From a virus: 24,701 nt of DNA. The notes beneath the pieces are model-generated. The model saw only the letters and a list, made by a program, of their open reading frames with translations. It was not told the origin of the DNA and ran no database searches. This document shows, piece after piece, positions 3,829 to 23,510 of the stretch. The position numbers were made by a program, and so were the translations under genes. Numbering within the stretch: the first letter of the stretch is position 1; every line of letters begins with the position of its first letter. The stretch lies in IMG/VR virus record IMGVR_UViG_3300033892_000009, positions 1 through 24,701 of that record. The stretch is one strand, 5' to 3'.

Positions 3829-4278
3829 TCAGGCGGCCTTCGATTCAATCTGGAGAACGTTCGAAGAGCCCGCGTTGATTTCGATTTTGCGCGGCTTCAT
3901 TGCCTCCGGAACCTCTCGGAACAGATCGATACGCAGAATGCCATTTTCGAACGAGGCACCTTTCACCTCGACGTGGTCAGCAAGGCTAAACTGCCGCCGG
4001 AACGCCCGCGCGGATATTCCATGATATAGGAACTCACGCTTTTCCTCGTTCTTGCGGCCATCAATGGTAACAACATTCTGCTCGGCAGTGATGTTGACAT
4101 CGCTCGGCGCGAAGCCAGCCAGCGCCAGCGAAATCTGGTACTGATTGTCACCGACGCGCTCGATGTTGTACGGGGGGTAGCTTTCCTCGCTGTTGCGTTG
4201 TGCCGCATCAACGAGGTCGATCAATCGGTCGAAGCCAATTGATGACCGCCAGAGAGGCGTAAAATCAAAAGTCCTCAT
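3829..4278 (-). CDS. Small heat-shock protein, Hsp20/alpha-crystallin family (IbpA-like)
   Basis: The 149-residue protein begins MRTFDFTPLWRSSIGFDRLI and contains the alpha-crystallin domain at about residues 35-130: YPPYNIERVGDNQYQISLAL, then GFAPSDVNITAEQNVVTIDG, YHGISARAFRRQFSLADHVE and ASFENGILRIDLFREVPEAM. The closing GILRIDL and PRKIEI match the conserved C-terminal part of rhizobial class A sHsps. It is an ATP-independent holdase that binds unfolding proteins in the cytoplasm. The ATG at 4278 is chosen over an upstream in-frame start (4320) because GGAGG precedes it and forms part of a ROSE element. It heads a three-gene unit. Confidence 0.96.
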   Translation of the reverse strand: MRTFDFTPLWRSSIGFDRLIDLVDAAQRNSEESYPPYNIERVGDNQYQISLALAGFAPSDVNITAEQNVVTIDGRKNEEKREFLYHGISARAFRRQFSLADHVEVKGASFENGILRIDLFREVPEAMKPRKIEINAGSSNVLQIESKAA

Positions 4279-4386
4279 AGCCAAATCCTCCACAGAGCAA
4301 GTTGGATACGGCCAGGACACCGGACACCACCGGCGCCCGCCTCGCGGAACCCATCAGGCGCTCCGCACCACTCATCGTGGCGAAAA
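4279..4386 (-). promoter_or_regulatory. ROSE-type RNA thermometer upstream of hsp20
   Basis: The leader of about 105 bases has several GC-rich hairpins. The last one, 4281-4305 on the minus strand, has CCAA pairing with TTGG and CTTGCTC opposite GAGGAT, which contains the Shine-Dalgarno. The U-U-G-C-U segment facing A-G-G-A with a G opposite G is the hallmark of ROSE elements, known from Bradyrhizobium and other rhizobial small heat-shock genes, where melting above about 37-42 degrees C frees the ribosome binding site. Confidence 0.85.
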
Positions 4387-5983: not shown

Positions 5984-6020
5984 TAAAAAAGCCCGCCTCT
6001 CCGAGCATGGAGGGCGGGCT
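5984..6020 (-). terminator. Strong intrinsic terminator at the end of the prophage late operon
   Basis: AGCCCGCC (5990-5997) pairs with GGCGGGCT (6013-6020) and CTCC (5999-6002) with GGAG (6009-6012), with one bulged base and a six-base loop. On the minus strand a run of T residues follows at 5990-5985. It is therefore directed against transcription from the right and is a natural end for the phage lysis genes. Confidence 0.88.
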
Positions 6021-7904: not shown

Positions 7905-8405
7905 TCAATCCTCCCTTAAGCACCAAGGCCGCTCGCCCCACATCGCGTCAGTGCGGCGGTTGAGCAGGCCTTGCATGAACGAGCCGTTCGATCTTGTGTA
8001 TTTGACCATCGCGTCGCAGGCCCGCTTGACGCGGCCAGCCTCAAGATCTGGACCGATGGACGTTCCGCAGACCTTGCCGGGGCCGAGATTGACGGTGAAC
8101 GAGGCGATGGCAGCCTGACGGTGCGGCGGCATCGTCGGCAGGCTCGGGACGCAATGGAGTATCTTCTGCGCGTACCGCTCCCCAACTTCGGACAGCGCCT
8201 TGTTGCAGTCCTCTTTCGTGAACTTCATCCCGACCTTGAGCCACGGCCAGTCGTAATTTGTGATCCCACCGCAAACGGTGATGACACCGGGAGGATCGAA
8301 CGGCAGATGTTTGGCGACGAGATTCATACCCTCCCAATGGGCGATCAAGACGCCGGCCAGCACGGCGCCGGAGGCCGATAGCGCCCGTTTGCTGGGGGCC
8401 TTCAT
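7905..8405 (-). CDS. Phage endolysin, GH24 lysozyme with SAR-type N-terminus (166 aa)
   Basis: ATG at 8405 gives MKAPSKRALSASGAVLAGVL then IAHWEGMNLVAKHLPFDPPG and VITVCGGITNYDWPW. The catalytic Glu is in HWEGM, with Asp in FDPPG and Thr six residues later (VIT), the spacing of the T4-lysozyme Asp-Thr pair. GLLNRRTDAMWGERPWC closes the fold. The enzyme cuts the glycan strands of peptidoglycan. The weakly hydrophobic Ala/Gly/Ser-rich segment at residues 8-23, without a cleavage site, fits a signal-arrest-release anchor. The start overlaps the holin stop as ATGA. The longer open frame upstream (to 8570) overlaps the holin and is not used. Confidence 0.88.
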   Translation of the reverse strand: MKAPSKRALSASGAVLAGVLIAHWEGMNLVAKHLPFDPPGVITVCGGITNYDWPWLKVGMKFTKEDCNKALSEVGERYAQKILHCVPSLPTMPPHRQAAIASFTVNLGPGKVCGTSIGPDLEAGRVKRACDAMVKYTRSNGSFMQGLLNRRTDAMWGERPWCLRED

Positions 8406-8641
8406 TGCTCGGTCCCAGGCTGTTTGAGAACGCGAGCAACCGCGAACGACGCCGAAATGACGATCAGCAGCGCCCCTACCCACCAATTGAAAGTCGAGTA
8501 CAAGTAGGCCGACAGGATCACGATCACCGCGCCGACGGCACCCCAGAAGGCGGCGACCCAGACGCTCCAAAGCCGCAGCAACTCGGTCTTCCAGTTATCG
8601 ATCAGGCGCGCGGACGCGCCCGGCGTTGGAGTGTCGGACAT
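8402..8641 (-). CDS. Putative holin with two membrane segments (79 aa)
   Basis: ATG at 8641, preceded by AGGAA six bases away, gives MSDTPTPGASARLIDNWKTE, then LLRLWSVWVAAFWGAVGAVI and a second membrane segment WWVGALLIVISASFAVARVL ending KQPGTEQ. The pattern (LIDNWKTxLxxLWS, two membrane helices, RVLKQP end) fits the rhizobial phage holin-like group (DUF7940-type). It lies immediately upstream of the SAR-type endolysin, with which it overlaps by 4 bases, so it should set the timing of lysis. An earlier ATG at 8647 is less likely because its spacing to AGGAA is too short. Confidence 0.75.
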   Translation of the reverse strand: MSDTPTPGASARLIDNWKTELLRLWSVWVAAFWGAVGAVIVILSAYLYSTFNWWVGALLIVISASFAVARVLKQPGTEQ

Positions 8642-8729: not shown

Positions 8730-8864
8730 ATGCACCGACACGACGCTGAACGACGCGCCGACCGCCTAAATCTCTTCAGGGGCGCCATTATAGGAATGCT
8801 CGCTGGAGCCCTCGGGTTAGGACTGATAGCGGTAGCCGCGGTTGTCTATTCCCATGTGGCTTAG
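8730..8864 (+). CDS. 44-aa membrane peptide on the opposite strand
   Basis: ATG at 8730 gives MHRHDAERRADRLNLFRGAI followed by IGMLAGALGLGLIAVAAVVY and SHVA. A polar, basic head precedes one glycine-rich membrane segment. It runs opposite to the surrounding late phage genes. No clear Shine-Dalgarno is present, so the start is uncertain. Function unknown. Confidence 0.45.
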   Translation: MHRHDAERRADRLNLFRGAIIGMLAGALGLGLIAVAAVVYSHVA

Positions 8865-9027
8865 TAACGTCCCATCCATGCAGCAGGATGATGGATTTCT
8901 CCAACTATTCATCGGCGCGTTTTTATGGTGTGGCTTGGTCTTCTGTCTGTTCGGCCTTGCTGCCGCGATACTCTGGGCCATATTCCCGGAATACTCGCCT
9001 AACCTGCGGGCATTAATAGAATGGTGA
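8854..9027 (+). CDS. 57-aa membrane protein on the opposite strand
   Basis: ATG at 8854 overlaps the end of the preceding frame by 11 bases; an ATG at 8878 is an alternative. The protein continues MQQDDGFLQLFIGAFLWCGL and VFCLFGLAAAILWAIFPEYS: one long or two short membrane segments. With the gene at 8730 it makes a pair of tiny membrane proteins inserted between the fibre genes and the lysis cassette of the prophage. No known superinfection-exclusion or immunity family is recognised. Confidence 0.45.
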   Translation: MWLSNVPSMQQDDGFLQLFIGAFLWCGLVFCLFGLAAAILWAIFPEYSPNLRALIEW

Positions 9028-9132
9028 ATGCACCACGCGCGGCGCGTCTGGCGCTGCGTTGGGCATTTTGCTTATCCTTTAAGATTGCTGGACTCTCACC
9101 CAACGGCCTGAAACGATCCCTTGGGGAAACAA

Positions 9133-9141
9133 GGGGGGGGG
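9133..9141 (+). repeat. Homopolymeric tract of nine G residues before a start codon
   Basis: Nine consecutive G residues end six bases before the ATG at 9148, where the Shine-Dalgarno should be. Tracts of this length are prone to slipped-strand changes, which would alter ribosome binding or promoter spacing for the gene at 9148. Confidence 0.6.
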
Positions 9142-9147
9142 CTACAA

Positions 9148-9462
9148 ATGGCTGAGATACCGGACCATCTCGTTCCAACAGATGGGTTGACCAATTCCTC
9201 CATGGCGCTGGCGGGAATTGATCTAATTGGCCGAGGTGGGATTCGAGCGCGCTTCAACTTCAGCGACGAAGAACAGAACTACATCGGCACATTTGCGATT
9301 GATGTTCGCCCGCGAAGCAGTGAGGGCACATCTGATGCAATGATTGCCGATGCTTACCGCAAGATGTCGGACGTTCTTCGTCAATGGCTTTATTCTGCGG
9401 ACAAGATGAGGCAGGTGTATGAAAGACGATCGGCGTCTCAGAGCCAATCGCATACGTCCTGA
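9148..9462 (+). CDS. Hypothetical protein (104 aa) on the opposite strand in the prophage
   Basis: Begins MAEIPDHLVPTDGLTNSSMA; a predicted beta-rich part (GIRARFNFSDEEQNYIGTFA, IDVRPRSSE) is followed by an amphipathic helix (AYRKMSDVLRQWLYSADKMR) and a polar end. It is soluble, with no signal or membrane segment. The ribosome binding site is the G9 tract. A 28-codon frame (9419-9505) follows in another register and may or may not be translated. It is probably a moron gene; function unknown. Confidence 0.55.
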   Translation: MAEIPDHLVPTDGLTNSSMALAGIDLIGRGGIRARFNFSDEEQNYIGTFAIDVRPRSSEGTSDAMIADAYRKMSDVLRQWLYSADKMRQVYERRSASQSQSHTS

Positions 9463-9569
9463 TCTCGCCATGGTCAGGCGCGTGGGGCATTGGATTTGTC
9501 CTTGATTATGTGAACTGGAGAGGCGCGCCGGGGATTGCACGAGACGCGCCAGTGTCGTTAATGTGAGTC

Positions 9570-9713
9570 CGTTCAGGCGGCTTGATAACCGGCTGAACGA
9601 TTGTCGAAGACAGGGACCGGCCTCATGCCGGGTGTCCCACGGATAAGCCCCTTGAAAGTGTGCGCGGTTCAGCCGTGTGCAGGGTCAAGCAGTGGGGTCG
9701 GCTTCTGTCTTCG
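9570..9713 (+). ncRNA. Candidate structured RNA upstream of the gene at 9758
   Basis: A 9-base outer helix joins CGAAGACAG (9605-9613) with CTGTCTTCG (9705-9713). Inside are a hairpin GGGA-CCGGC...GCCGG-TCCC (9613-9638) and a long arm: AAGCC (9645-9649) with GGCTT (9700-9704), CTTGA (9651-9655) with TCAAG (9685-9689), and TGCGCG (9661-9666) with the mirrored TGTGCA (9676-9681). A further hairpin, CGTTCAG...CTGAACG (9570-9599), lies in front; its GGCTGAAC (9591-9598) can instead pair with GTTCAGCC in the apical loop (9667-9674). Two G-U pairs in the central arm are possible only on the plus strand. The gene-free stretch 9506-9757 is taken up mainly by this element; a small ACCCG...CGGGT hairpin follows at 9727-9744. 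No known RNA family is recognised. Confidence 0.5.
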
Positions 9714-9757
9714 TCGATTATCAAACACCCGGCACCAGTCGGGTCGATGAGGACAGA

Positions 9758-9913
9758 ATGCTCATGGCTCAAATCGTTGTCCTTTCAATCCTCGCAGCCC
9801 TAATCGTCGCTTACGCGATTTGGAGAAGTCCCGCTGGCCGCGCCTTCAGAATCCGCGTTTTCTTCAATGGAGACGAGGACGCGATGTTAAAGGATGAATG
9901 GCGGCAATCATAA
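9758..9913 (+). CDS. 51-aa membrane protein on the opposite strand
   Basis: ATG at 9758, with TGAGGA five bases upstream, gives MLMAQIVVLSILAALIVAYA followed by IWRSPAGRAFRIRVFFNGDE and a polar end. One N-terminal membrane segment and a short cytoplasmic tail are expected. It ends one base before the stop of the converging tail fibre gene (9915). Its leader is the candidate structured RNA, so expression may be controlled there. Function unknown. Confidence 0.55.
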   Translation: MLMAQIVVLSILAALIVAYAIWRSPAGRAFRIRVFFNGDEDAMLKDEWRQS

Positions 9914-22166: not shown

Positions 22167-23510
22167 TCAGGATGTGCCGAACTTCATCAGCTTGATCGCT
22201 TCGAAGTTCACGACGCCACCACCGGTGCGCTTGGTGGTGTAGAACTTCGTGTACGGCTTCGAAGTCAGATTATCGCGCAGGACGCGAATGCCCTGACGGT
22301 CGACGATCTGATAGGCCTGCTTGAGGTCACCGAAAGCCAGCGAGAGGCTATCCGCGCCGAGCGCCGGCATGTCTTCCATCCGGACAACCGGGTAGCCCAT
22401 GATGGTCTCGGGCGTTCCCGCGACAAACGAGGGCTGCCAGAGATAGTTGTTCTGGCCGTCCTTGAACTTACGGATGGTGGTGATAACCGACCGACGGGTG
22501 AACCAGGCGGCATTGATGAGGTACTCATTCTTGAGCAGCCCCATCAGATCGATCAGTTTGTCGCCCTTCGCGGATGCGGCGAAATCGCCAGAAACGCCGG
22601 TTGCGAGGTAGCCAAGCGACCCCCACGCTACCCCAGACCCGTCATCAGCGGCCACAGGGTAGCCGTTGATGAAACCTCGAATCTTGTTCGCGGCACCGGT
22701 AACAAACTCGGAGTTCTCGAAGCGACCGAACTTGCCGCCGACCTTATCCATGAGCCAGCCCTCGATATCGACCGAGGCATCGTCGAGCAGGTTCTGGGTG
22801 GCCTTCGGCTCCGTGTCGAGATTGAACACAGGAATCTTCCACTCTCCAACCTGGGGCGTGGTGGTGTCGCCGGAGGTCGAGTGCTCGCCAGCGTAACCGA
22901 CGCCGGCCTCGCCCAAGTCCTCAATACCCTCGAGCGCGTCCGTCGAGATGGTCCGCGCGGACGCATACTGACGAACCGGGCTCGTCTCGTAGACCTTCTT
23001 CACGATGCCGCCGGTTACGTTAGGGGTAACGAAATAGCCACCGTCTGGGTCGGAGCCGACAGAGAGGGTTTTGACTTCTTCGGCGCTGAGAGCCTGATGC
23101 CCCTCACGAGCGAACCGGTCGAACGCCGATTTGTAATCGCCGTAGCCCTTCTCGTCGAGCGTGGTGAACGGACGGCGGCGGTCGATCGCGTTTGCGTTCA
23201 GAATGGTGTTGAATTCCTTCAACTCCAGCGCGGCCTTGCCGTTGTCGTCATTCTTGAGGCCCATGCGATTGAGCTTCAGTTCGAGAGCCTCGCGTTCGGC
23301 CTTCTCCGCCTTAACCGCGGCCTCAATGGCGGTTTTGGCCTCAACGGCCTTATCGAGAGAAGCCTCGATCTTGCTGAGACGCTCGACCAGCACCGGATCA
23401 TTGGCGCCGCCCTTCGTCTTAATCTCTTTGATCTGCTCGTCGTGCGATGCTTTGAACGCGTCAAAGGCCTCGCCCTGCTGCTTGAGCAGGGTTTCAATCT
23501 GGTCCGTCAT
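22167..23510 (-). CDS. Major capsid protein, HK97 family (447 aa)
   Basis: Begins MTDQIETLLKQQGEAFDAFK with a long N-terminal coiled-coil scaffold (about residues 1-90, including AIEAAVKAEKAEREALELKL), which the prohead protease should remove. The mature HK97 fold follows: SVGSDPDGGYFVTPNVTGGI, VKKVYETSPVRQYASARTIS, GWLMDKVGGKFGRFENSEFV and GYPVVRMEDMPALGADSLSL. It forms the icosahedral shell. It follows the protease gene with 11 bases between. A plus-strand frame of 518 codons lies opposite to it and is a shadow. Confidence 0.96.
   Translation of the reverse strand: MTDQIETLLKQQGEAFDAFKASHDEQIKEIKTKGGANDPVLVERLSKIEASLDKAVEAKTAIEAAVKAEKAEREALELKLNRMGLKNDDNGKAALELKEFNTILNANAIDRRRPFTTLDEKGYGDYKSAFDRFAREGHQALSAEEVKTLSVGSDPDGGYFVTPNVTGGIVKKVYETSPVRQYASARTISTDALEGIEDLGEAGVGYAGEHSTSGDTTTPQVGEWKIPVFNLDTEPKATQNLLDDASVDIEGWLMDKVGGKFGRFENSEFVTGAANKIRGFINGYPVAADDGSGVAWGSLGYLATGVSGDFAASAKGDKLIDLMGLLKNEYLINAAWFTRRSVITTIRKFKDGQNNYLWQPSFVAGTPETIMGYPVVRMEDMPALGADSLSLAFGDLKQAYQIVDRQGIRVLRDNLTSKPYTKFYTTKRTGGGVVNFEAIKLMKFGTS

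Follow-up and report, generated by a model that had tools for sequence, protein, structure and literature searches.

A structured leader RNA in a virus record and its relatives in Bradyrhizobium-like bacteria, a candidate family of cis-acting switches

Which RNA, if any, is encoded ahead of a small membrane-protein gene in IMG/VR record IMGVR_UViG_3300033892_000009, and does it act on that gene? The window, that is, the whole stretch of DNA analysed, is this 24.7-kb virus record (24,701 nucleotides). A structured RNA lies at 9570-9758 (+). It is probably the leader of the 51-aa gene and one member of a previously undescribed cis-acting RNA switch family. The best reading places this family in prophages and chromosomes of Bradyrhizobium-like bacteria, a host name that we infer from the closest Hsp20/ROSE copy, found in genome G196. 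No description of the element was found in the literature; published surveys were compared by their main texts, and an earlier listing in them is possible.

Setting and fold of the window RNA

The late genes are on the minus strand, with the major capsid protein at 22167-23510 and tail genes continuing to 9915; the endolysin gene (7905-8570) is left of the tail genes. The element is within a plus-strand island, with the last tail gene on one side and the endolysin on the other. As the preliminary description stated, it leads into a 51-aa ORF (9758-9913, +), which is preceded by GAGGA at 9749-9753 and stops 2 bases short of the convergent tail gene. The protein has a single hydrophobic segment (19-residue mean 2.5), and protein searches returned no relatives of it. 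When the 51-aa, 104-aa, and tail proteins were used as queries, no closer phage turned up. No promoter was recognizable for the element, and no terminator-like site was seen behind it.

Folding of 9560-9750 (+) gave -92.5 kcal/mol vs -68.4 +/- 4.2 kcal/mol for dinucleotide shuffles (z -5.7), with none of 200 shuffles as good. The core at 9599-9719 (+) reached -63.9 kcal/mol (z -5.7), and the front hairpin 9570-9599, folded alone, -17.2 kcal/mol (z -5.3), in agreement with the hairpin proposed earlier. The 9-base closing helix of the preliminary description (9605-9613 with 9705-9713) is exact, and all coordinates given in that description are correct; in the fold, the helix reaches 9605-9615/9703-9713, with more pairs on either side. 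Since the antisense strand folds much more weakly (z only -2.2 to -2.5) and the apical arm holds four G-U pairs on the plus strand, the plus strand is the structured one, as had been proposed. A coarser record-wide folding scan missed the element's exact frame, so the element is assigned no rank within the record. The parts of the element, which follow one another in the same order in the three relatives described below, are as follows.

9570-9758, +: whole leader element, with P0, P1 and its junction, pseudoknot, P4, and putative sequestor target; z -5.7
9570-9599, +: P0 front hairpin, loop 9581-9588 CUUGAUAA; z -5.3; L126 has a hairpin at the same place
9582-9588, +: pseudoknot strand 1, UUGAUAA, partner 9718-9724; pairing in all four members, read by hand
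9603-9615, +: P1 5' arm (putative anti-sequestor); both-side changes in 9 of 13 P1 pairs among four sequences
9617-9631, +: Pa, small junction hairpin CCGGC/GCCGG of the family fold; counterparts in the minimum-free-energy (MFE) folds of L126 and L131
9636-9640, +: Pb 5' strand CCCAC, partner 9692-9696; both-side changes in 2 of 5 pairs, 100% of cells paired
9647-9650, +: Pc 5' strand, partner 9682-9685; both-side changes in 2 of 5 modelled pairs, 85% of cells paired
9651-9658, +: 8-base bulge CUUGAAAG between the Pc 5' strand and P3
9659-9681, +: P3 apical hairpin (9659-9668/9672-9681); both-side changes in 9 of 10 pairs
9692-9696, +: Pb 3' strand GUGGG; evidence as for the CCCAC strand
9703-9718, +: P1 3' arm, the putative sequestor, partner either the 5' arm or 9743-9758; 16 contiguous bp to the ribosome-binding site
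9718-9724, +: pseudoknot strand 2, UUAUCAA, directly 3' of P1; pairing in all four members
9727-9744, +: P4 hairpin with kept letters CCCGGC and ACC; z -3.1; in all four members, by hand reading
9743-9758, +: putative sequestor target, the ribosome-binding site and the first base of the start codon
9749-9753, +: Shine-Dalgarno GAGGA, read from the sequence, 4 bases ahead of the ATG at 9758
9758-9913, +: 51-aa ORF with one hydrophobic segment, the putative regulated gene

Relatives and comparative structure

DNA searches with the element found nothing in phages or plasmids, and a DNA search of 397 genomes gave short chance matches only (L079-L081). The RNA is missing from the phages with the most similar capsid proteins, among them Bradyrhizobium phage ppBeUSDA76-1. 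Proteins similar to the capsid protein (22167-23510, -) at about 45% identity occur in 267 of the 397 genomes of the order and are probably those of gene transfer agents; the true phage relatives by capsid are the few above 55% identity.

Relatives were obtained using covariance models, as the preliminary description had suggested. Model R1, built from the window sequence alone, was run on 391 genomes of the Bradyrhizobium-like family, which was picked via G196, the genome with the closest Hsp20/ROSE copy among 20 tested. It gave one good match, L126 in G562 (45.2 bits, roughly E 5e-6 per genome). Model R2 (window and L126) gave L131 in G472 (33.9 bits), and model R3 (three sequences), run on eight whole genomes of that genus, gave L133 in G540 (69.5 bits, E 3.5e-13); all E-values of these searches are rough. 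R3 matched in two of the eight genomes, one of the matches being a training sequence; L133 played no part in R3, yet it is 86% identical over 185 bases to the training sequence L131. Plain BLAST matched L131 to the window at 71% over 120 bases (E 3e-7), so homology does not depend on the models alone. L127 (29 bits with R1) was set aside after giving no match with R2, and pattern matches in viral contigs (L110-L120, L130) were judged to be chance by sequence, fold, and model score. The Rfam 15 covariance models did not match the window element, L126, L131, or L133, even at permissive E-value limits, which agrees with the earlier statement that no known family was recognized.

The four sequences, a small set, were fitted to the model as alignment A6, in which 93.8% of pair cells hold and both-side changes occur in 22 of 33 pairs. 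None of 500 shuffles reached this, and slid-partner controls had 2-9 pairs with both-side changes. The compensatory changes that the preliminary description had proposed looking for are thus present; P1 and P3 are rewritten almost completely among the window, L126, and L131/L133. Inside P1, the alignment favors a three-way junction made of hairpin Pa and an arm of Pb, internal loop, Pc, bulge, and P3. The internal loop between Pb and Pc is GGAUA/AAGCA in both the window and L126. The inner hairpin and long three-part arm described earlier do form the MFE core of the window, but this core is an alternative to the junction fold that L126 tolerates and L131 breaks; the relatives favor the junction with its CCCAC/GUGGG helix.

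Bases of the P0 loop pair with bases directly behind P1 in a pseudoknot: UUGAUAA/UUAUCAA in the window, CUUGACA/UGUCAAG in L126, UGAUAA/UUAUCA in L131, and UCGUAA/UUACGA in L133. Read by hand, the pairing is kept in all four members, and three positions have both-side changes. The three CTGTCYTCRWCRA repeats were also considered as a DNA operator, a reading dropped because the relatives alter the letters jointly and retain the pairing.

Long inverted repeats and a sporadic occurrence in phage and chromosomes, both seen here, would also be expected of a palindromic repeat or a small mobile DNA element with a fortuitously good fold. We give such an origin almost no weight: G562, G472, and G540 each have a single match, multiple copies with target-site duplications were not seen, the pairs include sense-strand G-U pairs and both-side changes, and the sense strand folds better than the antisense strand in all four members, by a wide margin in the window and L126.

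Exclusive pairing with the ribosome-binding site

The preliminary description had proposed two exclusive states, and part of this stood. Its own pair, GGCTGAAC with GTTCAGCC (9590-9598/9667-9675), forms 9 bp in the window, but its counterparts in the three relatives are at most 3-4 bp long, and the pair is not conserved. An exclusive pairing does exist elsewhere. In the window, the P1 3' arm (9703-9718) is complementary to 9743-9758 over 16 contiguous bases, and no longer helix of that span occurs on the record's plus strand; pairing of this arm with the P1 5' arm and with the ribosome-binding site is mutually exclusive. The L126 arm CCCGAGUC pairs with GACUCGGG, over the GGGG ahead of a methyltransferase gene with a TTG start, and the arm of L131 and L133, CCUCUGCUGC, pairs with CAGC-GCAGAGG ahead of 70-aa and 63-aa ORFs, respectively. 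Because L131 and L133 have the same P1 arm and leader, these are three independent putative switches and not four. Comparison of the four sequences shows that the fold, the pseudoknot, and the exclusive pairing are conserved.

Each arm fits its own leader (-24.5 kcal/mol in the window, -17.2 in L126, and -17.1 in L131), and swapped combinations reach only -9 to -11 kcal/mol. Among 5000 shuffled leaders for each member, 1 (window), 47 (L126), 139 (L131), and 81 (L133) were as good; the single-case values for L126, L131, and L133 are modest, and the pattern rests on the agreement among members. In real GC-rich genes, it is not rare for a ribosome-binding site to pair strongly with sequence upstream of it. 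In ppBeUSDA76-1, one of 51 genes beats the upstream duplex of the window (-27.7) and several come near, so duplex energy alone proves little.

Predicted energies of the two states (kcal/mol) are -93.0/-92.7 for the window, -98.8/-94.0 for L126, -85.2/-87.4 for L131, and -91.6/-98.3 for L133. The window states are 0.3 kcal/mol apart when the transcript ends at 9760. Longer window transcripts running into the gene are predicted to favor P1 by 8:1 to 12:1, and full sequestration is predicted for transcripts without the P1 5' arm. With P1 closed, a short and weaker hairpin in the 51-aa gene (9749-9756/9777-9784, +) can cover the Shine-Dalgarno.

On the switch reading, the RNA would consist of the front hairpin P0, the closing helix P1, which encloses a three-way junction, and a pseudoknot joining the P0 loop with bases directly behind P1. 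P1 could form first in transcription, since both of its arms precede the ribosome-binding site. With P1 closed, its 3' arm would leave the ribosome-binding site free and the gene could be translated; with P1 open, the same arm would cover the ribosome-binding site and start codon, and translation would be blocked. The state may be set by a metabolite, a protein, or another RNA that stabilizes or unsettles the junction, the pseudoknot, or P1. We infer the transcription of the element, the translational effect, its direction, and its trigger.

Temperature is an unlikely trigger. An RNA thermometer would be in keeping with an element that can sequester a Shine-Dalgarno and with the ROSE element elsewhere in the same record, but in three members, the predicted occupancies of the two states barely shift from 15 to 42 C, and sequestration stays unmelted; this explanation has a negligible chance of being right. 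ROSE (RF00435) is likewise a rhizobial leader RNA over a Shine-Dalgarno, present in one copy in the record, whereas the element has no match to RF00435, and its predicted states are not thermometer-like. The only RF00435 match in the record is at 4272-4365 (-) (62.4 bits), ahead of an Hsp20 gene at 3829-4320 (-). The nearest plasmid copies are in Tardiphaga and Bradyrhizobium, and this locus may be phage cargo or host flank.

Downstream genes and resemblance to known leaders

All four elements directly precede a same-strand ORF. L131 is in a prophage whose minus strand carries genes for portal, protease, capsid, tape measure, tail J, and tail fibre; the portal, protease, and tape-measure assignments come from reading the sequences. 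The L131 RNA is on the plus strand in the interval between tail fibre and endolysin, where the window has its element too. The other two, L126 and L133, appear to be chromosomal. The neighbors of L126 are a methyltransferase, a possible glycosyltransferase, and an apparent type I restriction system; L133 has an MFS transporter on one side and a PepSY-type membrane protein on the other. The products directly behind the relatives are a 262-aa methyltransferase (L126) and proteins of 70 aa (L131) and 63 aa (L133), both without a hydrophobic segment. L131 and L133 are similar as far as the start codon and no further, with unrelated proteins behind it; the leader thus behaves as a unit joined to different genes. 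The four downstream genes differ, with no common function or pathway pointing to a ligand.

The RNA might instead act in trans, as a small RNA, or bind a protein of the phage, its placement and its match to the ribosome-binding site being secondary. Its fold and its pseudoknot match stand-alone RNAs in strength of conservation, the genes downstream are unrelated, and the shuffle values of the ribosome-binding-site match are modest in three members. We nevertheless consider a trans-acting or protein-binding role unlikely, in view of the position directly before a same-strand ORF in four of four cases, the L131/L133 similarity extending to the start codon, the lack of a terminator-like site behind the window element, and a match to the ribosome-binding site that recurs in different letters.

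The leaders of the toxin genes hok, tisB, and zorO are long and structured, stand before a small membrane protein, and hide the start in some RNA forms. The window element resembles them as a long structured leader ahead of a small membrane protein, and it could accordingly be read as the leader of a type I toxin-like gene whose translation is blocked until processing or antisense RNA binding. The one hydrophobic segment of the 51-aa product and the predicted full sequestration of 5'-truncated transcripts fit this, but the small hydrophobic product is found behind the window element only, not behind L126, L131, or L133. With a methyltransferase and soluble small proteins behind the other members, the family is not one of type I toxin leaders. 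No antisense RNA gene was noticed either, and we regard this explanation as very improbable.

A translational riboswitch is a structured leader in which the 3' arm of the closing helix doubles as the anti-Shine-Dalgarno strand. The P1 3' arm of the element is predicted to have the same double role, with near-equal energies of the two states, and the element has conserved junction and internal-loop letters as well as a pseudoknot. A conserved, covarying structured domain is present (both-side changes in 22 of 33 pairs), and an exclusive pairing that hides the ribosome-binding site is predicted in four of four leaders. The element differs in matching no Rfam riboswitch family and in having downstream genes without a common pathway. 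It would thus work like a translational riboswitch, with the expression platform of one, and is not classed as a riboswitch here.

The cis-acting switch reading can be taken further, and we do so tentatively: the family could possibly be a new riboswitch class, a small-molecule-sensing RNA of prophages that is placed on the reverse strand between the tail-fibre and the lysis genes, controls accessory genes of the lysogen, and also serves chromosomal genes of the host. Phage accessory genes are usually viewed as promoter-controlled. A conserved RNA switch module that prophages and chromosomes have in common, and that reaches to the ribosome-binding site of a different gene each time, would make phages carriers of sensor RNAs and would prompt a search for the signal. 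With four aligned sequences and a supported structure, the family can be searched for and the mechanism tested directly.

Structured-RNA surveys (PMC8632094, PMC11109978) report, in their main texts, the same kind of object, conserved RNAs with riboswitch-like placement; these main texts differ in not mentioning Bradyrhizobium, Rhizobiales, or phage.

Further features were seen near the elements. The region G562:C32:4500-9850 (L126/L128), in which the chromosomal copy heads the methyltransferase and the possible glycosyltransferase, is perhaps a genomic island. In the window, 8730-9462 (+) is an island of small ORFs facing the late operon (44 aa, 49 aa, and 104 aa), for which no family or relative was found; the 44-aa and 49-aa ORFs have one hydrophobic segment each. 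A strong terminator-like hairpin followed by a T run is at 5990-6020 (-).
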